Shown here piece by piece: positions 17,755 to 35,379 of a stretch of 36,162 bases of DNA. This DNA comes from an uncultured Bacteroidales bacterium (GTDB lineage: Bacteria; Bacteroidota; Bacteroidia; Bacteroidales; Bacteroidaceae). The position numbers and the translations under genes were made by a program. Within the stretch, counting starts at the first letter, position 1. Every line of letters begins with the position of its first letter. The stretch is from NCBI GenBank assembly GCA_902775385.1, contig CACYMI010000004.1:1-36162 (forward strand), given 5' to 3'. Below the pieces are notes generated by a model. That model did not search any database. It saw only the letters and a program-made list of their open reading frames with translations, and was not told the DNA's origin.

Positions 17755-17786
17755 TTTGTTAAATTCCTTACTTAGTTGTACCTTTG
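17755..17786 (+). promoter_or_regulatory. Promoter of the beta-galactosidase gene
   Basis: TTTG at 17755-17758, a 20-nt spacer and TACCTTTG at 17779-17786 give a strong match. The predicted transcript start near 17793 lies downstream of the TTG codon at 17784, which excludes that codon as a start. Confidence 0.82.
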
Positions 17787-17801
17787 CGCAAACTAATGCT
17801 T

Positions 17802-20800
17802 ATGAATATGACTGCACGAATAACATTACTGTTGTTTGCTTTTGCCTCGATGACAAAGGCAGAAGGTTTGCAAGGTTTTCTTTATGGTGTAAAGGATAGT
17901 CCGGACGGAACAGAGTGGCAAAGCCCTGAGGCGTTGTCGCTGAACAAGGAGCAACCCCATGCTTATATGTTTCCTTTTGCCAATGAGGAGGAAGCGCTAA
18001 AGGTGCTGCCAGAGGGAAGTTCATATTATCAGAGTTTAGATGGGACGTGGAAGTTCCATTGGGTGCCCAGTCCTGAGAAACGCCCTGTGGACTTCTATCA
18101 GCCGGAATATAATGTGACGGCCTGGGATGATATACAGGTGCCCGGATGTTGGAATGTGCAAGGCTTGCAGAAGGACGGAAGTATGAGGTACGGTGTGCCC
18201 GTCTATGTGAACCAGCCGGTGATTTTCTACCATGAAGTGAAGGTGGATGACTGGCGCGAGGGGGTGATGCGCCAGCCGAAGGACCGGCGCTGGACGACTT
18301 ACCGTGACCGGAACGAGGTGGGTTCCTACCGCAGGACTTTCCTGATTCCGGCCAAGTGGAAGGGTAGGGAGGTTTATCTTAACTTTGACGGTGTGGACTC
18401 GTTTTTCTACCTATGGATAAACGGAAAGTATGTGGGCTTCTCGAAGAACAGCCGGAACACAGCCCGTTTCAATATAACACCTTATTTGAACCCGTCCGGT
18501 GAGAATACGGTGGCTGTGGAGGTGTACCGCAGCAGTGACGGCTCCTTCCTGGAGGCGCAGGATATGTTCCGTCTGCCCGGTATCTTTCGCAGTACTTATC
18601 TGACGGCTGTGCCCAAGGTTTCGCTTCAGGATTTAGTTATACGCACGACAACCCTCACCAGCAAGGGCATAGACAAGGCAGATGCCGAGTTTAGGATTGA
18701 GGCTCCTTTTGACATGAGTTTCATACCGTTCAAGAAGGCAATGAACCTGATTGTTGAATACAAGGTATATCCTATAGAGTTGTACACCGATAAGGTGTCC
18801 GCTAAACCTGTACTAATCTTCACCACCTCACCTGTTATCCCTGTTGTTACCGATATCCATGACGTTCGTCCTTGGAGTGCTGAGGCACCTTACCGTTATG
18901 TACTTACGGCTACGCTGAGGAATAAGAGGGGGAAGGTGCTGGATATCCGCAGTACCTACTTCGGGTTCCGGACCGTGGAGATTAAGGATACCCCTGCCAG
19001 TGAGGATGAGTTCGGGTTGGCCGGCCGTTACTTCTATGTGAACGGGAAGCCGGTGAAACTGAAGGGTGTGAACCGTCATGAGACAAATCCCGCTTCGGGT
19101 CATGCCATCACACGTGAGCAGATGCTGGAGGAGGTGATGCTGATGAAGCGGGGCAACATCAACCATGTGCGCCTGTCGCACTACTCGAATGATCCCTACT
19201 GGTACTATCTTGCTGACAAATACGGCCTTTATCTGGAGGACGAATGTAACATAGAGAGCCACGAATACTATTATGGCAAGGAATCGCTCTCGCATCCCAA
19301 GGAATGGAAGGCGGCTCATGTGGCCCGTAATATGGAAATGGTACATGCGCATGTGAACCACCCCAGCATTGTTATCTGGAGTCTGGGCAACGAGGCCGGT
19401 CCGGGTGAGAACTTCAAGGCTGCCTATGATGCGATTAAGGCGTTCGATACCAGTCGTCCTGTTCAGTATGAGCGCAACAACGATATTGTGGATATGGGCA
19501 GCAACCAGTATCCCAGCGTGGCCTGGGTACAGCAGGTAGCCAAGGGAAAATCGAATGTGAAGTACCCTTACCACATCTCGGAATATGCCCACAGCATGGG
19601 TAACTCGTTAGGTAATCTGGTGGACTACTGGCAGGCGATGGAAAGCAGTAATTTCTTCTGCGGCGCGGCCATCTGGGACTGGGTGGACCAGGCAATAGAT
19701 ACTTACACCAAGGACGGAACCAAGTATATGGGCTATGGCGGCGATCATGGCGACTGGCCCAATGACGGTATGTTCTGCATGAACGGCATCATGCTGCCAG
19801 ACCTTACCCCCAAGCCTCAGTACTACGAGGTGAAGAAGGTCTATCAGAATGTGGGTGTGACCCTGAAGGAAGTAAAGGAAGTCAATGGTGAGGAACGTGG
19901 TGTCATTTTCAAGGCAACGGCCGTTGATTATAAGATTTTCAATAAGAACTATTTTGAGCCCATTAGCTTAGACATGTATGACATTGTAGCATATCTTGTC
20001 CGTGATGGCATAAAGGAAAACGCTGAGCCCATCCTTCTGAATGAGGATATACAGCCCCGTAAAGAGGTCAGTTGCAGCCATCTTGTTGAAATGGATAAGC
20101 CTGGCGAGTATTTCCTGAACATAGAGTTCCGCCTGAAAAGGGATATGCCCTGGGCCCGGAAGGGCTATGTGCAGATGGCCGAGCAGCTGTTCCTGAAAGA
20201 CAGTTCAGGGGAGAACAGAAGCGAAGGAGTTGTGGAAGGGACGCTGAATGTGAAGGAGGAAGATACCCGAACCATTGTGGAGGGTAAGAACTGTGTTATC
20301 ACCTTTGATAATGCTACCGGCAGTCTGTGTAGCATGCAATACGGCGGCAAGACCATCCTGAGGGATTCCCCCTTGCAGCTTTCTGCCTTCCGTGCCCCGG
20401 TGGATAACGATAATTGGGCAAGGGACCAGTGGTTCCAGCAAGGGTTGTATGATTTGCAGCATAAGGCTATCGGAAAACCCAGTATAGAAAAAACTCCCGA
20501 GGGTCCTGTGTACATTACTTATACTGTGGTGAATCAGGCCAAAGGAAGGGGTAGCGTAAAATATCGTCCGGGTAAAGCAGGACAACCCTATGAGAGTGTA
20601 GCTGAAGCAACAGGCGAAGGTGAGCATGTATCGTTTACCACAACGCAGACCTACAACATCTATCCTGATGGTACCGTTGTGTTGGCAAGCAGTATTGTTT
20701 CAAGCAATCCGGATCTGGCGCTTCCCAGACTGGGTTATGAGTTGAAGCTGCCCGGCCGGTTCAACCAATATGCCTATTACGGCCGAGGACCCCTGAACAA

Positions 20801-21863
20801 CTACAATGACCGAAAGACAGGCTCGTTCATCGGCCTGTATAAAAGTACGGTTCAGCAGCAGTTTGTTAACTTCCCCAAGCCTCAGAGTATGGGTAATAGG
20901 GAGGATGTACGCTGGTGTTCTCTGAGAGATGACGAAGGCACAGGGCTGCTGTTTGTCAGCGAACTGGGCACAATGAGCACCTCCGCACTTCCCTGGAGCG
21001 CCCTGCAAATGACGCTTGCCCAGCATCCGCATGAGCTTCCGGCAAGCGACGGAACCTATTTGCATCTGGATTGCAAGGTGAACGGACTGGGAGGTAACAG
21101 TTGCGGACAAGGCGGCCCGTTGAAACAGGACAGAGTACAGGGAGCCTTGCATCAGATGAAGATTTTGATTCGTCCTCTCAATGAGGCTGACGAGGCTGGT
21201 GTTATCAGAAAACGCATACTCTGCCCTGTGGCCATTTATCGTGACAAGGCGGGCAAGGTCACCATTGCCGGCGACCCGGAGTATGGGTTGGAGGAATATC
21301 CCATCTGCTATCGTGTCGGTAAGGGAAAAACCGAGAAATATACCGGCATCTTCAATTTCCAGCAGGGTGGGACCATATATGCATGGTATGAGGGAACTGG
21401 GAAGAATCCTGTCTCGGCAACCTTCGAGAAGATAGAAACAATACCCCTTGACGTGGTTTATGTCAGCAGCGAGGAAGGACCTGGCGGAGAGGTTGCCAGG
21501 AACCTGGTGGATAACAACCCTTCTACCATCTGGCACACCATGTACAGCATTACGGTGCCTAAGTATCCGCATTGGATAGACTTTGACTGCAATGAGCAGA
21601 AGATGCTGAAAGGCTTTACCTACCTGCCCCGTCAGGACGGTAGTCCGAATGGCAATATCAAGGGTTACAAGGTGCAGGTGAGTCAGGATGGCAAAACGTG
21701 GAGCGAAGCCGTCAGCGAAGGTGAATTCGAGAACAATGCCAAGGAGAAGAAGGTGCTCTTTGCTAAGCCCGTTAAAGCCCGTTACCTGCGTTTTACGGCC
21801 CTTAGCAGTCAGAATGGAGCCGATTTTGCCAGCGGAGCGGAATTCGGGGTACTGGTAGAGTAG
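17802..21863 (+). CDS. Secreted GH2 beta-galactosidase with C-terminal F5/8-type domain
   Basis: A 1353-aa glycoside hydrolase of family 2, cleaving terminal beta-galactosides, probably of host or dietary glycans, in the periplasm or at the surface. The signal peptide spans about 1-20 (L-L-L-F-A-F-A ... K-A). The sugar-binding domain (about 60-240), immunoglobulin-like domain and TIM barrel (about 375-690) follow. The acid/base Glu is E531 in W-S-L-G-N-E and the nucleophile is E594 in I-S-E-Y-A-H-S-M-G-N. A beta-galactosidase small-chain-like domain (about 835-1130) precedes a C-terminal discoidin/F5-8 C domain (about 1218-1353, W-I-D-F-D ... K-G-Y-K-V-Q-V-S-Q-D-G-K-T-W). The ATG at 17802 was chosen because the promoter -7 element covers the upstream TTG; ATGs at 17796 and 17808 are alternatives. 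It is transcribed alone, with no SusC/SusD pair nearby. Confidence 0.93.
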   Translation: MNMTARITLLLFAFASMTKAEGLQGFLYGVKDSPDGTEWQSPEALSLNKEQPHAYMFPFANEEEALKVLPEGSSYYQSLDGTWKFHWVPSPEKRPVDFYQPEYNVTAWDDIQVPGCWNVQGLQKDGSMRYGVPVYVNQPVIFYHEVKVDDWREGVMRQPKDRRWTTYRDRNEVGSYRRTFLIPAKWKGREVYLNFDGVDSFFYLWINGKYVGFSKNSRNTARFNITPYLNPSGENTVAVEVYRSSDGSFLEAQDMFRLPGIFRSTYLTAVPKVSLQDLVIRTTTLTSKGIDKADAEFRIEAPFDMSFIPFKKAMNLIVEYKVYPIELYTDKVSAKPVLIFTTSPVIPVVTDIHDVRPWSAEAPYRYVLTATLRNKRGKVLDIRSTYFGFRTVEIKDTPASEDEFGLAGRYFYVNGKPVKLKGVNRHETNPASGHAITREQMLEEVMLMKRGNINHVRLSHYSNDPYWYYLADKYGLYLEDECNIESHEYYYGKESLSHPKEWKAAHVARNMEMVHAHVNHPSIVIWSLGNEAGPGENFKAAYDAIKAFDTSRPVQYERNNDIVDMGSNQYPSVAWVQQVAKGKSNVKYPYHISEYAHSMGNSLGNLVDYWQAMESSNFFCGAAIWDWVDQAIDTYTKDGTKYMGYGGDHGDWPNDGMFCMNGIMLPDLTPKPQYYEVKKVYQNVGVTLKEVKEVNGEERGVIFKATAVDYKIFNKNYFEPISLDMYDIVAYLVRDGIKENAEPILLNEDIQPRKEVSCSHLVEMDKPGEYFLNIEFRLKRDMPWARKGYVQMAEQLFLKDSSGENRSEGVVEGTLNVKEEDTRTIVEGKNCVITFDNATGSLCSMQYGGKTILRDSPLQLSAFRAPVDNDNWARDQWFQQGLYDLQHKAIGKPSIEKTPEGPVYITYTVVNQAKGRGSVKYRPGKAGQPYESVAEATGEGEHVSFTTTQTYNIYPDGTVVLASSIVSSNPDLALPRLGYELKLPGRFNQYAYYGRGPLNNYNDRKTGSFIGLYKSTVQQQFVNFPKPQSMGNREDVRWCSLRDDEGTGLLFVSELGTMSTSALPWSALQMTLAQHPHELPASDGTYLHLDCKVNGLGGNSCGQGGPLKQDRVQGALHQMKILIRPLNEADEAGVIRKRILCPVAIYRDKAGKVTIAGDPEYGLEEYPICYRVGKGKTEKYTGIFNFQQGGTIYAWYEGTGKNPVSATFEKIETIPLDVVYVSSEEGPGGEVARNLVDNNPSTIWHTMYSITVPKYPHWIDFDCNEQKMLKGFTYLPRQDGSPNGNIKGYKVQVSQDGKTWSEAVSEGEFENNAKEKKVLFAKPVKARYLRFTALSSQNGADFASGAEFGVLVE

Positions 21864-21934: not shown

Positions 21935-21942
21935 TAATTTTG
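21935..21942 (+). promoter_or_regulatory. -7 element of the regulator gene
   Basis: TAATTTTG fits the -7 consensus and lies 27 nt before the start codon. A CTTG at 21911-21914 is at 20-nt distance and is one base off TTTG. Confidence 0.6.
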
Positions 21943-21969: not shown

Positions 21970-22674
21970 ATGAGACAACAACAACGTGGCGCAATCGTGT
22001 TTCTGGCACTTGTCCTGTGTTCCGGCCTTACCAGTTTTACCAGCTATAGCTGTACCAGCAGACTTGTTGCCGAGGATATGGACAGGGCTCTGCTGCTTAC
22101 CATGCAGGAACAGCAAAGCGATGTGATTACCCAGGATACCATAGGCTTGTTCAACAGCCATCTGCAGATGGAGGCGCTGAGGGGCCGGGCAACCCTGGCG
22201 GTGGACACCCGGCAGAAGGACTTTACATGCTATGCCCGCTGTTCGGCAGCCACCATCTTCTCGCTGTCGGATCAGCGCCCGGCTACTGTGCTGTGGTCTG
22301 TAACTCTGCTATGGGGTATGTTCTGTCTGTATCTCCGTATGAGAAAAGGTAACGCTTTGCCGGCACAAGGCGCCCTGACGTACGGAGGTCTGACATATTC
22401 CGAGACGGAAGACAGATTCCTCAGCCGCACCGGCGAGGCCGTCAGGCTGACCCCCATGCAGCGGCAGTTGTTGAGGATGTTCTTCAGCAGTCCGTCGCAC
22501 CGGTTAAGGAAAACGGAGATCTGCGACACACTTTGGCCCCGGAAACCTGATGCCAATGACACCTTATATACCCTTGTCAAAAGGCTACGCCCCATAATAG
22601 AGGAACATTCCAGCCTGAGAATTGAGTCGGATAGGGGATGCTCTTATCAGCTGAAAGACAGAAGCTTAGAATAA
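21970..22674 (+). CDS. Membrane-anchored winged-helix (OmpR-type) regulator
   Basis: A 234-aa protein. A hydrophobic N-terminal segment (8-26), a probable periplasmic region (27-104, with Cys 28, 87 and 91) and a second membrane segment (104-121) precede a cytoplasmic OmpR/PhoB-type winged helix (about 137-228). That domain has L-T-P-M-Q-R-Q-L-L-R at 160-169, a recognition helix N-D-T-L-Y-T-L-V-K-R-L-R-P at 196-208, and a wing ending R-G-C-S-Y-Q-L. The order is the reverse of ToxR/CadC, where the DNA-binding domain is N-terminal. There is no receiver domain, so it would sense through its periplasmic part as a one-component regulator. Four TGTCAG direct repeats begin right at its stop codon, in front of the DUF2723 gene, and are a candidate binding site. 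Confidence 0.82.
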   Translation: MRQQQRGAIVFLALVLCSGLTSFTSYSCTSRLVAEDMDRALLLTMQEQQSDVITQDTIGLFNSHLQMEALRGRATLAVDTRQKDFTCYARCSAATIFSLSDQRPATVLWSVTLLWGMFCLYLRMRKGNALPAQGALTYGGLTYSETEDRFLSRTGEAVRLTPMQRQLLRMFFSSPSHRLRKTEICDTLWPRKPDANDTLYTLVKRLRPIIEEHSSLRIESDRGCSYQLKDRSLE

Positions 22675-22713
22675 TGTCAGGGAAATGTCAGATTGTTGTC
22701 AGACACTTGTCGG
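22675..22713 (+). promoter_or_regulatory. Four TGTCAG direct repeats at 11-bp spacing (candidate operator)
   Basis: TGTCAG starts at 22675, 22686 and 22697 and TGTCGG at 22708, an exact 11-bp period, one helical turn. OmpR/PhoB-type winged-helix dimers bind head-to-tail on direct repeats of this spacing, and the PhoB box half-site itself contains TGTCA. The block lies between the stop of such a regulator and the DUF2723 gene. The TTG codon at 22693 falls inside it and is therefore an unlikely start. Confidence 0.6.
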
Positions 22714-22773
22714 GCAGTTTTCTGGCACATGAATGAAACTGTTGCTTACTTTGCCGGAAAAATTGGGCAAAGT

Positions 22774-25700
22774 ATGAAGCAACAAATCAATTTTAGGAGA
22801 ATCAACGTATGTGTGGCATGGCTTGTTTTTGCCATTGCCGCTATTGTCTATGGACTGACAGTTGAGCCTACGGCCAGCCTGTGGGACTGTCCCGAGTTTA
22901 TTGCCTGCGGTTATAAATTAGAGATTGGGCATCCGCCAGGGGCACCTTTCTTTATGCTGGTGGCCAACCTGTTCGCGCAACTGGCAGGCAGTCCCTCGCA
23001 GGTAGCCCTGACGGTCAACCTGCTCTCGGCTCTCCTGAGCGCAGGCTGTATCTTCTTTCTGTTCCTGACCATTACCCATCTGGCAAGAAGGTTAGTGTGC
23101 CCAACAGGGGAGGTGACGACCTTAGACAGGATAATAGGTATAGAGGCATGCGGTGTCATAGGTGCACTGGCCTATGCTTTCAGTGATACCTTCTGGTTCT
23201 CTGCCGTTGAGGCTGAGGTATATGCCTTCTCCAGTTTTCTGACGGCACTGATGTTCTGGTTGATACTGAAATGGGAGGATGAGGCTGACACTCCCCAGAG
23301 TGACCGCTGGATTGTACTTATAGCTTACATAACGGGTCTGTCCGTGGGGGTGCATCTATTGTGCCTGTTGTGTCTGCCGGCCATGTCCTTCGTGGTTTAT
23401 TTCCGTAAGGCAAAGCGTATAACGCGATGGGGTATGCTGAAGACGTTGGGAGCTGGCATATTGTTGCTGGGCATCATTCTGTACGGTATTATCCCCGGTG
23501 TGGTGACGGCAGGCGGGTGGATGGAGCTGCTGTTTACCAATGTGCTGCTTTTTCCTTGCCATACGGGACTGGCTTGCTATGCGGTGTTGCTGACATGCGG
23601 CCTTCTCCTTGCCTATTATAAGGCGGGAAGGCGGGCTCTCAGACTTCCTCTGGCCTGCCTGATGATGATACTGGCCGGGTACAGCAGCTATGGCGTTATC
23701 CTAATCAGGGCCAATGCCAATATGCCGATGTGTGAGAATGCTCCCGGTAACATCTTTGCCCTAAAGAGTTATCTGAGCCGGGAACAGTATGGGGATGTCC
23801 CCCTCTTCTATGGCCCGTCTTACTGCAGTGAGCCCGACTATGAGCAGAAGGGCGACTACCTGGTGTGGAAACATAAAGAGGGTTCCCCCGTCTATCGTCC
23901 CTCGACCGACAAGGGAAAAACTCATTACAACCTGGTCCGTCATGATGTTAAATACCAGTACAGGGATAATATGTTCTTCCCGCGAATGCATTCGGCACGC
24001 CACGCCAGGGTATATGACCAGTGGAGAGACAGCAAGCGAAAGGGTACGGTTCCCTCTGCCGCAGAGAACCTTCGATTCTTCCTCGGTTATCAGGTGAATT
24101 TTATGTACTGGCGCTATTTCCTTTGGAACTTTGTAGGCAGGCAGAACAATATACAGGGGCATGGCGAGGTGGAGCATGGCAACTGGATAACGGGAATAGG
24201 TTGGATAGATAATTGGCTGTTAGGGTGTGATGTGTCCCAACTGCCTTCGGACCTGAAACAGAACAAGGGCCGTAATGTGTTCTATGCCCTGCCCCTGCTG
24301 TTAGGACTGGCCGGAATTGCCTGGCAATGGAGAAGAGGGAGCGAGGGTAAGCGCCAATTGCTGACAGTACTTCTACTATTCGTAATGACGGGCCTGGCTA
24401 TTGTCGTTTATCTGAATCAGACACCGATGCAACCGCGTGAACGTGACTACGCCTATGCGGGCTCATTCTACGCCTTTGCCCTCTGGATAGGCCTGGGCGT
24501 AGGGATGATATGGGAGGAGATAAAAGTGAAAAGTGAAAAGATAAAAGTCGGGAATGGGATTGCGGGGGCCGTTATGGCAGGCCTTATCGGACTTATCGTT
24601 CCCTTGCAGATGGTGAGCCAGACGTGGGATGACCATGACAGGAGCGGACGTTATACCTGTAGGGATTTCGGCGCCAACTACCTGAACAGCATGCCGCAGG
24701 AGGGTAATCCTGTCATCCTGACGAATGGTGATAACGATACCTTCCCGCTATGGTACAATCATGAGGTGGAAGGGGTGCGTACCGATACGCGTGCCTGTAA
24801 TCTGGAATATGTACAGACTGACTGGTACATTGACCAAATGAAACGTCCGGCCTATGACTCGCCTGCCCTGCCCGTCAGTTGGTCTCATGACGACTATCTG
24901 GAGGGCCGGCGTGAGGTGGTGCCCGTGCGTCCGGAGCTGAAGGAGAAGATCGAGGCATTCAGACAGGAGCGTCCCGATGAGGCTAAGCGGCTGTTGGGCG
25001 AAAACCCCTTTGAGGTGAGAAACATCTTAGACAAATGGATACTGAATCCCCAGGAGGAGATGCAGTGCATTCCCACTGACAGTATGGTCATCTGCTCGGA
25101 TGAGGGTGATATGGTCATCTCACTGAAGGGAGTCACTAAACTGTGCAAGAAAGACCTGATGGTATTGGAGATGCTGTCAAAAGCTGATTGGAAGCGGCCG
25201 ATATACACCTCGATAGGCCTGGGCTCTGACAATCTCCCTTACCTGCGTGACCATCTGGTGCTTGAGGGCCTGGCTTACCGTATCTCTCCGAAAGCTGTAG
25301 GGAAAAAGGTGGATGTGGAGCGGCTGTATGACAATATCATGCATCGTTTCCGTTATGGTGGTCTTACTGTTAAAGGGCTCTATGTGGATGAGGATGTGAA
25401 ACGGCTGGCCGATATACATCAGACGGTTATGGGCATCCTTATTGACTCGCTCTTAAAGCAGGGAGATACCAAGAGGGCGTTAGCTGTCTGCAGAAAGTGG
25501 CAGCATGAGATGCCACAGGAAAACGTGCCTTATACGGATGCTGCCTTGTCGATGGCCCGTTGCTTCTATGTGAACGGGTTACCGGAGGAGGGGGATGAGA
25601 TTGTGGGTGACCTGCTCCGGCGCTCGGATGAATGGCTGGCATGGGCAGGGACCATACGTCCTGAGCGCAGGCCGGGGTCGGCATATTCCCGCTACATCTG

Positions 25701-25815
25701 GTTTGAGACGATGGAACGGTCCCTGGCAGTAGCCGTCCGATATGACAGGAAGAAGTTTTATTATCAATATGGAAAGAGATATGAGCATTATGCGACACAG
25801 ACAGTCCGGGGATAA
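22774..25815 (+). CDS. DUF2723 (GT117-type) multi-pass membrane glycosyltransferase-like protein
   Basis: A 1013-aa inner-membrane protein of the DUF2723 family, listed to my knowledge as glycosyltransferase family 117 and resembling GT-C enzymes that use lipid-linked sugars. Family signatures are L-W-D-C-P-E-F (36-42, acidic residues D38 and E41), G-H-P-P-G-A-P (52-58) near the first periplasmic loop, and M-Q-P-R-E-R-D-Y-A-Y later. About a dozen membrane segments are followed by a large soluble C-terminal part (from about 610) with helical repeat-like sequence. A charged stretch E-E-I-K-V-K-S-E-K-I-K-V (about 581-592) is encoded by a heptameric array inside the last hydrophobic region. ATG 22774 was chosen because the protein then starts as relatives do; ATG 22729 is an alternative. 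The small DUF3098-like gene overlaps its end. Confidence 0.82.
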   Translation: MKQQINFRRINVCVAWLVFAIAAIVYGLTVEPTASLWDCPEFIACGYKLEIGHPPGAPFFMLVANLFAQLAGSPSQVALTVNLLSALLSAGCIFFLFLTITHLARRLVCPTGEVTTLDRIIGIEACGVIGALAYAFSDTFWFSAVEAEVYAFSSFLTALMFWLILKWEDEADTPQSDRWIVLIAYITGLSVGVHLLCLLCLPAMSFVVYFRKAKRITRWGMLKTLGAGILLLGIILYGIIPGVVTAGGWMELLFTNVLLFPCHTGLACYAVLLTCGLLLAYYKAGRRALRLPLACLMMILAGYSSYGVILIRANANMPMCENAPGNIFALKSYLSREQYGDVPLFYGPSYCSEPDYEQKGDYLVWKHKEGSPVYRPSTDKGKTHYNLVRHDVKYQYRDNMFFPRMHSARHARVYDQWRDSKRKGTVPSAAENLRFFLGYQVNFMYWRYFLWNFVGRQNNIQGHGEVEHGNWITGIGWIDNWLLGCDVSQLPSDLKQNKGRNVFYALPLLLGLAGIAWQWRRGSEGKRQLLTVLLLFVMTGLAIVVYLNQTPMQPRERDYAYAGSFYAFALWIGLGVGMIWEEIKVKSEKIKVGNGIAGAVMAGLIGLIVPLQMVSQTWDDHDRSGRYTCRDFGANYLNSMPQEGNPVILTNGDNDTFPLWYNHEVEGVRTDTRACNLEYVQTDWYIDQMKRPAYDSPALPVSWSHDDYLEGRREVVPVRPELKEKIEAFRQERPDEAKRLLGENPFEVRNILDKWILNPQEEMQCIPTDSMVICSDEGDMVISLKGVTKLCKKDLMVLEMLSKADWKRPIYTSIGLGSDNLPYLRDHLVLEGLAYRISPKAVGKKVDVERLYDNIMHRFRYGGLTVKGLYVDEDVKRLADIHQTVMGILIDSLLKQGDTKRALAVCRKWQHEMPQENVPYTDAALSMARCFYVNGLPEEGDEIVGDLLRRSDEWLAWAGTIRPERRPGSAYSRYIWFETMERSLAVAVRYDRKKFYYQYGKRYEHYATQTVRG
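24518..24552 (+). repeat. In-frame heptanucleotide array in the DUF2723 gene
   Basis: Units AGATAAA, AGTGAAA, AGTGAAA, AGATAAA and a decayed AGTCGGG are in strict 7-bp register. They encode a Lys/Glu-rich loop next to a membrane segment, and the unit resembles the array at 34105 read on its minus strand. Confidence 0.75.
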
Positions 25816-34070: not shown

Positions 34071-34104
34071 TGAATAGTAAATCTCACTCTTCACATAAAA
34101 ATTC

Positions 34105-34139
34105 TTCACTCTTCACTCTTCACTCTTCACTCTTCACTT
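34105..34139 (+). repeat. Heptanucleotide array between ruvB and the nucleoside-gate gene
   Basis: Four perfect TTCACTC units and a final TTCACTT form the cleanest array in the window, and a related TTCACAT sits at 34090. It fills most of the 76-nt gap and ends 7 nt before the next start codon. No terminator or promoter motif was seen in this gap. Confidence 0.9.
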
Positions 34140-34146
34140 AAAAAAT

Positions 34147-35379
34147 ATGGTACTGAATTACATTTGGGTAGGTTTCTTTCTCATTGCTTTTGTGATAGCG
34201 GTGGTGAAACTGTTGTTCTGGGGCGACTTTGAAGTCTTCCCCGCTATGATGGACGCCACATTCTCGTCTTCCAAGACAGCGTTCGAGATTTCGCTGGGTC
34301 TGACAGGCGTACTGTCATTATGGCTCGGCATCATGAAGATAGGCGAGAAGGGCGGAGTGGTAAACGCCTTGGCCCGGTTGCTGAGCCCCGTCTTCGTCAA
34401 GCTGTTCCCGGATATTCCCAAGGGTCATCCCGTAACGGGCAGCATCTTCATGAACATAGCCGCCAATATGCTGGGGCTGGACAATGCCGCCACGCCATTG
34501 GGCCTGAAAGCCATGGAGCAGCTGCAGGAACTGAACCCCAAGAAGGATACCGCCACCAATCCCATGATTATGTTCCTGGTGCTGAATACCAGCGGACTGA
34601 CACTCATACCTATATCTATTATGGTATATAGGGCTCAGATGGAGGCGGCACAGCCCACGGATATCTTCATCCCCATCCTGCTGGCCACCTTCTTCTCTAC
34701 CCTGGCAGGCATCATCATCACCAGCCTGTTCCAGAAAATCAATCTGCTGAACCGCACCATGCTGCTGACACTGGGCGGAGCCGCCGTAGCGGTAGCCGGC
34801 ATCATCTGGGGATTCGGCCGGATGGATTCCATTATGATGAACACTGTAAGCGTCAGCGCTGCCAATATCATGCTGATGCTCATCATCATAGCCTTTATCC
34901 TGGCCGGTATGCGCAAGAGAATCAATGTGTACGATGCCTTTGTGGAGGGGGCCAAGGACGGCTTCACCACGGCAGTCCGCATCATCCCCTATCTGGTAGC
35001 TGTGCTGGTAGGCATAGGCGTCTTCCGTGCCTCCGGAGCCATGGACATGCTCATTGACGGCATCAAATACGGTGTGGAGGCTTGCGGCGGCAATACCGAC
35101 TTTGTGGGAGCCTTGCCCACCGCGCTCATGAAACCCCTCTCCGGCAGCGGAGCCCGCGGCATGATGATTGATGCCATGACTACCTACGGAGCCGATTCGT
35201 TTGTGGGAAGGCTCAGTTGTATCTTCCAGGGCTCCACGGATACCACCTTCTATATCCTGGCCGTCTATTTCGGCAGTGTAGGTGTGGCCAAGACACGCCA
35301 TGCCGTAACCTGCGGTCTTCTGGCCGACCTGGCCGGTATCATAGCGGCCATCGCCATAGCATATATGTTCTTCGGATAA
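34147..35379 (+). CDS. Nucleoside-recognition (Gate) domain membrane protein, SpmA-SpmB fusion type
   Basis: A 410-aa inner-membrane protein with about ten hydrophobic segments. The N-terminal half resembles SpmA (G-L-T-G-V-L-S-L-W-L-G-I-M-K-I, then N-M-L-G-L-D-N-A-A-T-P-L-G, L-N-T-S-G-L-T-L-I-P). The C-terminal half resembles SpmB (E-G-A-K-D-G-F, R-I-I-P-Y-L-V-A-V, L-M-K-P-L-S-G-S-G-A-R-G, F-Q-G-S-T-D-T-T-F-Y). Gate-domain proteins are thought to be transporters or regulators of nucleoside-like molecules. In spore formers SpmA/B affect spore core dehydration, which cannot apply to a Bacteroidales bacterium, so the role is unknown. It is 76 nt after ruvB and 14 nt before the flippase gene. 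Confidence 0.88.
   Translation: MVLNYIWVGFFLIAFVIAVVKLLFWGDFEVFPAMMDATFSSSKTAFEISLGLTGVLSLWLGIMKIGEKGGVVNALARLLSPVFVKLFPDIPKGHPVTGSIFMNIAANMLGLDNAATPLGLKAMEQLQELNPKKDTATNPMIMFLVLNTSGLTLIPISIMVYRAQMEAAQPTDIFIPILLATFFSTLAGIIITSLFQKINLLNRTMLLTLGGAAVAVAGIIWGFGRMDSIMMNTVSVSAANIMLMLIIIAFILAGMRKRINVYDAFVEGAKDGFTTAVRIIPYLVAVLVGIGVFRASGAMDMLIDGIKYGVEACGGNTDFVGALPTALMKPLSGSGARGMMIDAMTTYGADSFVGRLSCIFQGSTDTTFYILAVYFGSVGVAKTRHAVTCGLLADLAGIIAAIAIAYMFFG

Follow-up and report, generated by a model that had tools for sequence, protein, structure and literature searches.

The window, a stretch of 36,162 nucleotides from an uncultured Bacteroidales bacterium, contains a gene for a 234-residue winged-helix regulator of the OmpR/PhoB type (21970-22674, + strand; Pfam Trans_reg_C and structure model), a predicted operator of four head-to-tail half-sites (22675-22713, + strand) and a gene for a TMEM260-like (DUF2723) membrane glycosyltransferase (22774-25815, + strand; Pfam PF11028, 3.6e-73), which is the predicted target. 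A large GH2 beta-galactosidase with a C-terminal F5/8 domain is encoded directly upstream of the regulator (17784-21863). The regulator gene has a predicted promoter of its own, with a -7 box TAATTTTG (21935-21942, + strand) assigned from the sequence according to the TAnnTTTG consensus quoted in PMC7366714, and no TGTCAG array is present at this promoter. A second -7 box precedes the DUF2723 gene at 22746-22753. TTG 22693 and ATG 22729 were rejected as starts of this gene because both precede the -7 box, and the likely start is therefore ATG 22774, from which the protein begins with MKQQINFRRI. Elsewhere in the window, five perfect copies of TCTTCAC (34103-34138) are located just before the ATG of an ORF at 34147; this simple repeat could vary in length.

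Pfam analysis of the regulator identified Trans_reg_C at residues 155-228 (2.6e-10; 40.7 bits against a cut-off of 26.2) and no other family, and thus no receiver domain. The score with the PhoB equivalog model was 19.1 bits against a cut-off of 296.2. In the structure model (pLDDT 85, pTM 0.50) two helices, at residues 2-47 and 103-126, enclose a small mixed domain (55-99) and are followed by the winged helix. A two-component response regulator, that is PhoB proper, was rejected on the grounds of the missing receiver, the equivalog score far below the cut-off and the long helices with the small mixed domain. Fold matches extend over residues 132-232 and display the OmpR/PhoB winged-helix fold, with the DNA-binding domains of ToxR, TcpP and CadC among them, while a profile comparison ranks E. 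coli PhoB bound to pho box DNA (1gxp, E 2.3e-5) first among solved chains. For the small, presumably periplasmic domain no clear fold match was obtained. The likely layout comprises an N-terminal membrane helix, a periplasmic domain (~28-104), a second membrane helix (~105-122) and the DNA-binding domain (~134-232), and hydrophobicity and flanking charges, read by eye, suggest a topology with both termini inside and the middle in the periplasm. The original prediction of a membrane-bound OmpR-type winged-helix protein upstream of the repeats is borne out by the Trans_reg_C match and the two long model helices, with the membrane segments assigned by reading of the sequence. No kinase gene is present directly beside the regulator.

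The first base of the repeat array directly follows the TAA of the regulator gene (22672-22674). As originally described, TGTCAG occurs at 22675-22680, 22686-22691 and 22697-22702 and TGTCGG at 22708-22713, all on the + strand and at steps of exactly 11 bp. The assignment of these half-sites as an operator is based on the sequence, a repeat scan and conservation. A zero-mismatch search located the exact TGTCAG-N5-TGTCAG pair at a single place in the window. A de novo search for 6-mers repeated four times every 11 bp gives the array a score of 17 of 18, a value reached by none of 200 dinucleotide shuffles (maximum 15); when all periods from 8 to 30 are allowed, one of 100 shuffled windows equals its score. 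By itself the array is unusual, not overwhelming, and comparative evidence decides. In the genome as a whole (2.49 Mb, 80.5% complete) there is one exact three-unit TGTCA-N6 array, and allowing two mismatches adds three further weak matches, where the reversed control pattern has four. One more two-unit match, on contig C64, is without a -7 box at the proper distance. Many sites, as in a PhoB regulon, were not found, the 80.5% complete genome containing one array of at least three units, and the genome-wide PhoB-like response that had been named as the main alternative is therefore a poor fit.

Conservation of the array was examined in the best 80 of 408 relatives, mostly metagenome-assembled genomes of Prevotella or Prevotellaceae, many with ruminant-gut titles. 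In 64 of these 80 loci a TGTCAG pair with 11 or 12 matching letters out of 12 is found no more than 200 nt from the regulator stop, and in 66 no more than 1 kb from it, as compared to a mean of 0.017 and a maximum of 1 locus for 60 permuted control words. In 16 of the 80 loci no pair was found within 200 nt, two of these having one within 1 kb. Exact pairs have a period of 11 in 61 of the 80 loci and of 22 in 13, seven other periods being found in none, and the median distance from stop to array in the 61 loci is 32 nt. For 25 of 138 distinct regulator domains the fetched stretch holds no exact pair. An unbiased scan of 134 regulator flanks for exact three-copy 6-mers returned, downstream, the TGTCAG array or its shifted frames with the exception of two loci with other words, and returned none upstream. 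The pair is also present at the regulator gene in five of six clear members from other genera or families of the order, located just downstream or at the gene end in four (L288, L290, L291, L292) and upstream, facing away, in L293; no pair occurs at the regulator gene of L289. The check proposed with the original prediction, a survey of orthologous loci, has thus found the repeats kept in 64 of the best 80 of 408 relatives and present where the regulator is present. On contig SUYH01000005.1 two regulator paralogs (L109 and L120) lie ~5.5 kb apart, of which only one is directly followed by a pair. Copies of CTGACA, which is TGTCAG on the other strand, are often seen upstream of the pair (e.g. 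L119, L128 and L129), resulting in two inverted pairs; they are positioned 12 bp before the first unit in 31 of 146 arrays and 24 bp before it in 29 of 146.

The regulator family is present in 61 of 139 genomes of the genus. Co-occurrence was counted in 129 of these 139 genomes, among the matches listed, where an exact TGTCAG pair accompanies the TGTCAG-class regulator in 42 of 43 genomes and is found in 3 of 12 with a sister-class regulator and 27 of 74 without a regulator. With a spacer rule chosen afterwards, the corresponding counts are 42/43, 0/12 and 12/74. Because the genomes are related to one another, p-values for such counts come out too favourable. In the sole miss (G028) the regulator is cut at the contig start. 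Six genomes without a detected regulator (G014, G070, G152, G158, G175 and G192) hold a pair with the typical ACAAA spacer, so in these the regulator has been overlooked or lost, or something else binds.

The array stands in a fixed register with the promoter of the gene that follows. The -7 box TTACTTTG of the window (22746-22753, + strand; TAGCTTTG in the nearest relative, L098) begins exactly 38 bp behind 22708, the first base of the last half-site. Among 124 arrays, 113 are followed by a strict TAnnTT(T/C/A)G box. Counted from the first base of the last unit, this box begins at 38-39 bp in 101 of the 113, and among the other 12 are several in which a spurious box comes early and a good one stands behind it at 38-39 bp. 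In a larger set, a looser rule requiring TT and G places the box at 37-39 bp in 146 of 165 arrays, where about one in five would pass by chance according to our estimate. The letters that this looser rule leaves free remain strong (0.96 for T, 0.97 for A, 0.95 for the third T and 0.97 for the C that follows). In 84 of 146 arrays the last unit is followed, 14 bp from its first base, by a -33-like word, TTTG or TTCG; the window has CTGG at this position. The passages of PMC7366714 that describe the -7/-33 consensus, with TAnnTTTG at -7, report that no -33 motif was found in Flavobacterium johnsoniae. The last half-site stops short of the -33-like word and leaves the -7 box free. A fixed upstream position of the site is typical of activation. 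Since the last half-site is fixed 38-39 bp before the -7 box and next to the -33-like word, activation of a primary-sigma promoter seems most likely.

At 13 loci, whose regulators form a clade with a recognition helix of the type DNPDDTLYTFISRMK, the pairs read TGTAAG instead of TGTCAG, and the next gene after the array is each time a member of the DUF2723 cluster. Genus-wide, the TGTAAG pair is present in 13 of 13 sister-class genomes, each time at most 0.6 kb from the regulator, and in 21 of 126 other genomes. One TGTCAG unit persists in some of the TGTAAG arrays (L186, L187, L188 and L189). An operator was assigned to 113 distinct domains, for 16 of which the pair lies elsewhere in the fetched stretch rather than immediately after the gene. 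At residue 202, all 101 domains of the TGTCAG class carry Leu and all 12 of the TGTAAG class carry Phe, and the two classes also differ at several further positions of the helix and wing. As the TGTAAG class forms one fully supported group in a quick tree, the operator split is one evolutionary event. In the alignment to 1gxp, Leu202 falls on the His of TVDVHIRRLR, and Arg205, which is invariant, on the second Arg, positions which we take to be His198 and Arg201 of PhoB. Triple or quadruple arrays of TGTCAC at 11 bp were also observed in L049, L050 and L051 (G063, G078 and G060), all in genomes with a TGTAAG-class regulator and with -7-like boxes at 38-39 bp (GATCTTTG, TATCTTTG and TACCTTTG, respectively). 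The sequence fetched around these three, at least ~1 kb to either side, shows no regulator-family ORF (E below 0.01), and a fourth TGTCAC array, L054 (G033), is without a -7-like box at 38-39 bp. The TGTCAC arrays suggest a third operator specificity.

The first genes behind boxed arrays comprise 45 outer-membrane receptor-like genes, 45 DUF2723 genes, 24 genes for DUF3098-like small membrane proteins, 17 for unknown small proteins, 4 for thioredoxin-like proteins and a few others; the loci are related, these counts are not independent, and Pfam was used to check a single member of the DUF3098 group and a single one of the thioredoxin group. In the receptor-like group, OMP_b-brl_3 matches 3 of 17 members, and Pfam returned no match for the first member. 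The three DUF3098-type loci examined (L212, L260 and L264) each continue with a DUF2723 gene of a second kind (Pfam-checked in L264), and therefore the glycosyltransferase link recurs though the paralog differs. The genome of the window holds a second PF11028 gene at a contig end (C29:17572-18105), with ~66 bases present upstream, where an array is possible. These comparisons of sequence support the view that, in other species, the circuit forms a small regulon that takes in outer-membrane receptor-like genes unlinked to the regulator. Of the local circuit of regulator, operator and glycosyltransferase that had originally been proposed, the connection of the parts is supported by conservation, co-occurrence and the matched change to TGTAAG, and the unlinked receptor-like genes elsewhere widen it beyond a purely local one. 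The TMEM260 protein O-mannosyltransferase is assigned to CAZy family GT117 in PMC11292533, and the relevant part of PMC8729774 calls the O-oligosaccharyltransferase for the Tannerella forsythia glycan unknown in 2022. One could propose the TMEM260-like glycosyltransferase as a protein O-glycosylation enzyme of the phylum.

An inverted repeat joins the -7 box to the start codon of the target gene. Its left arm TGTTGCTTACTTTGCC (22740-22755, + strand) spans the -7 box and its right arm GGGCAAAGTATGAAGCAACA (22765-22784, + strand) spans the start codon, with a predicted hairpin of -23.0 kcal/mol (z -4.2) in the window. Stem scores of at least 10 occur at 39 of 128 array promoters and at 0 of 115 control promoters of the same loci. 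RNA folding of the whole region gives a mean z of -2.63 for 123 array promoters vs +0.14 for 104 controls (Mann-Whitney p 3e-24; here and below p-values overstate, because genomes and loci are related), and control promoters behind a same-strand gene have no hairpin (32 promoters, mean z 0.03). RNA downstream of the predicted start has a mean z of -0.03 at the 123 array promoters; the left arm contains the -7 box and is absent from this mRNA, which is therefore not unusually folded. The start codon is paired upstream at 72 of 123 array promoters and 50 of 104 controls.

The hairpin varies with the position of the promoter. Mean z is -3.25 directly downstream of the regulator (80 promoters, 63 below -2), -1.63 behind another gene (30 promoters, 9 below -2) and -1.12 where no same-strand gene end is nearby (13 promoters, 3 below -2). 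In loci of the genus and order it is -2.33 beside the regulator (27) vs -1.08 elsewhere (37). Within target classes this difference is clear only for DUF3098, and the receptor-like genes of the genus have none (-1.32 beside the regulator vs -1.30 elsewhere). The strongest hairpins (-6.32) belong to three small-protein promoters away from the regulator. The arms of a promoter pair better with each other than with arms swapped in from partners of other classes in 91 of 123 cases, and in 23 of 37 after dereplication (p 0.004); in the DUF3098 class own arms are not better than swapped ones (7/15). RNAalifold detected no consensus structure.

One reading of the hairpin is that read-through mRNA from the regulator gene would hide the start codon of the target, whereas mRNA from the regulated promoter, without the left arm, would stay free. 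We put this silencing of read-through transcripts, predicted from folding and comparison of the sequences, at somewhat below an even chance. The inverted repeat might instead act as DNA, whether by binding a second factor at the palindrome or by forming a cruciform that responds to supercoiling, a reading to which we assign a serious though still doubtful probability. The presence of the -7 box in the left arm and the ordinary folding of mRNA from the promoter itself are in keeping with a role in DNA, as are equally strong hairpins at some promoters away from the regulator. However, the sequences of the arms vary between loci while their complementarity is kept, which fits base pairing rather than the site of one protein and leaves the cruciform some probability.

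As to the array, conservation, spacing, co-occurrence and the matched change of operator and helix are evident from the comparison, and it is very probable that the regulator acts through the TGTCAG array downstream of its own gene. The periplasmic domain between the two membrane helices would sense an envelope signal, the C-terminal PhoB-like winged helix would bind head to tail to TGTCAG half-sites every 11 bp, and the bound regulator would activate the primary-sigma -7/-33 promoter of the next gene. The output would be envelope-modifying enzymes or receptors, namely the TMEM260-like glycosyltransferase in the window and receptor-like genes and a few others elsewhere. The array might instead be bound by a different response regulator of the OmpR/PhoB type, such as a PhoB homolog, with the membrane protein merely a neighbour or co-regulated. 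E. coli PhoB sites also consist of TGTCA at 11-bp steps, for instance at pstS as given in PMC10294691, and the six genomes without a detected regulator keep pairs with the typical spacer. Yet the genome of the window has a single array of at least three units, arrays track the membrane regulator, also in five of six members from other families of the order, and operator letter and recognition helix change together, which makes binding by another regulator very improbable. A functionless array arisen by chance or slippage, for which the one shuffled window in 100 at periods 8-30 could be cited, is already contradicted by the conservation, the fixed promoter register and the matched change, and its probability is practically negligible.

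Given that the regulator acts through the array, activation is the probable outcome and repression, alone or together with activation, an improbable one. The sequence does not tell the direction of control, and PhoB is described as a dual regulator in PMC10294691; against repression, the last half-site occupies a fixed upstream position, before the -33-like word and clear of the -7 box. In its most general form, the activation reading would have regulators of inverted topology in Bacteroidales control protein O-glycosylation and receptor genes via a fixed-register operator and a fold-back hairpin, such that transcripts of the regulated promoter, but not read-through from the regulator gene, give rise to the target protein, and with at least two operator specificities (TGTCAG and TGTAAG) and a possible third (TGTCAC) at 38-39 bp. 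We regard this generalization as rather unlikely as it stands.

To our knowledge, few transcription circuits are known in Prevotella-like gut bacteria, and our literature search found no paper describing such a regulator-operator system. The locus offers, in these bacteria, a set of regulator, operator and target with a natural change of specificity. Tying an uncharacterised TMEM260-like glycosyltransferase to one signal-responsive regulator makes both signal and substrate testable, and the fixed register of array and promoter might be used as a genetic part. The promoter-linked hairpin, if true, would be a chromosomal case of read-through silencing.

Among known systems, the regulator resembles PhoB at the pho box (1gxp) in its DNA-binding domain, by sequence and fold, and in a similar half-site. 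Unlike PhoB, it has no receiver that we could find, is predicted to be anchored in the membrane and has no kinase gene directly beside it; unlike the pho box, the half-site runs on as TGTCAG, often with an ACAAA spacer, and is joined to a Bacteroidota -7/-33 promoter; and unlike the phosphate regulon, there is one array in the genome of the window. With ToxR, TcpP and CadC it shares the combination of periplasmic part, membrane anchor and OmpR-type domain in one protein without a receiver, the membrane segments being read from the sequence. In ToxR and CadC the DNA-binding domain is N-terminal and precedes one helix, whereas in the present regulator it is C-terminal (residues 155-228 of 234) and lies behind two membrane helices; by analogy, the regulator may work like ToxR or CadC with a reversed domain order. 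The target gene shares PF11028 with TMEM260 of GT117, and O-mannosyltransferase activity is at most predicted for its product. In the fold-back inhibition of IS10 and IS50 transposase mRNA, an inverted repeat hides the start codon only in transcripts that come from outside. The array promoters are similar in that the inverted repeat spans promoter and start codon and the read-through RNA, not the RNA from the promoter itself, is predicted to be unusually stable; unlike those of IS10 and IS50, they belong to chromosomal envelope genes beside a regulator, where silencing is a possible function.
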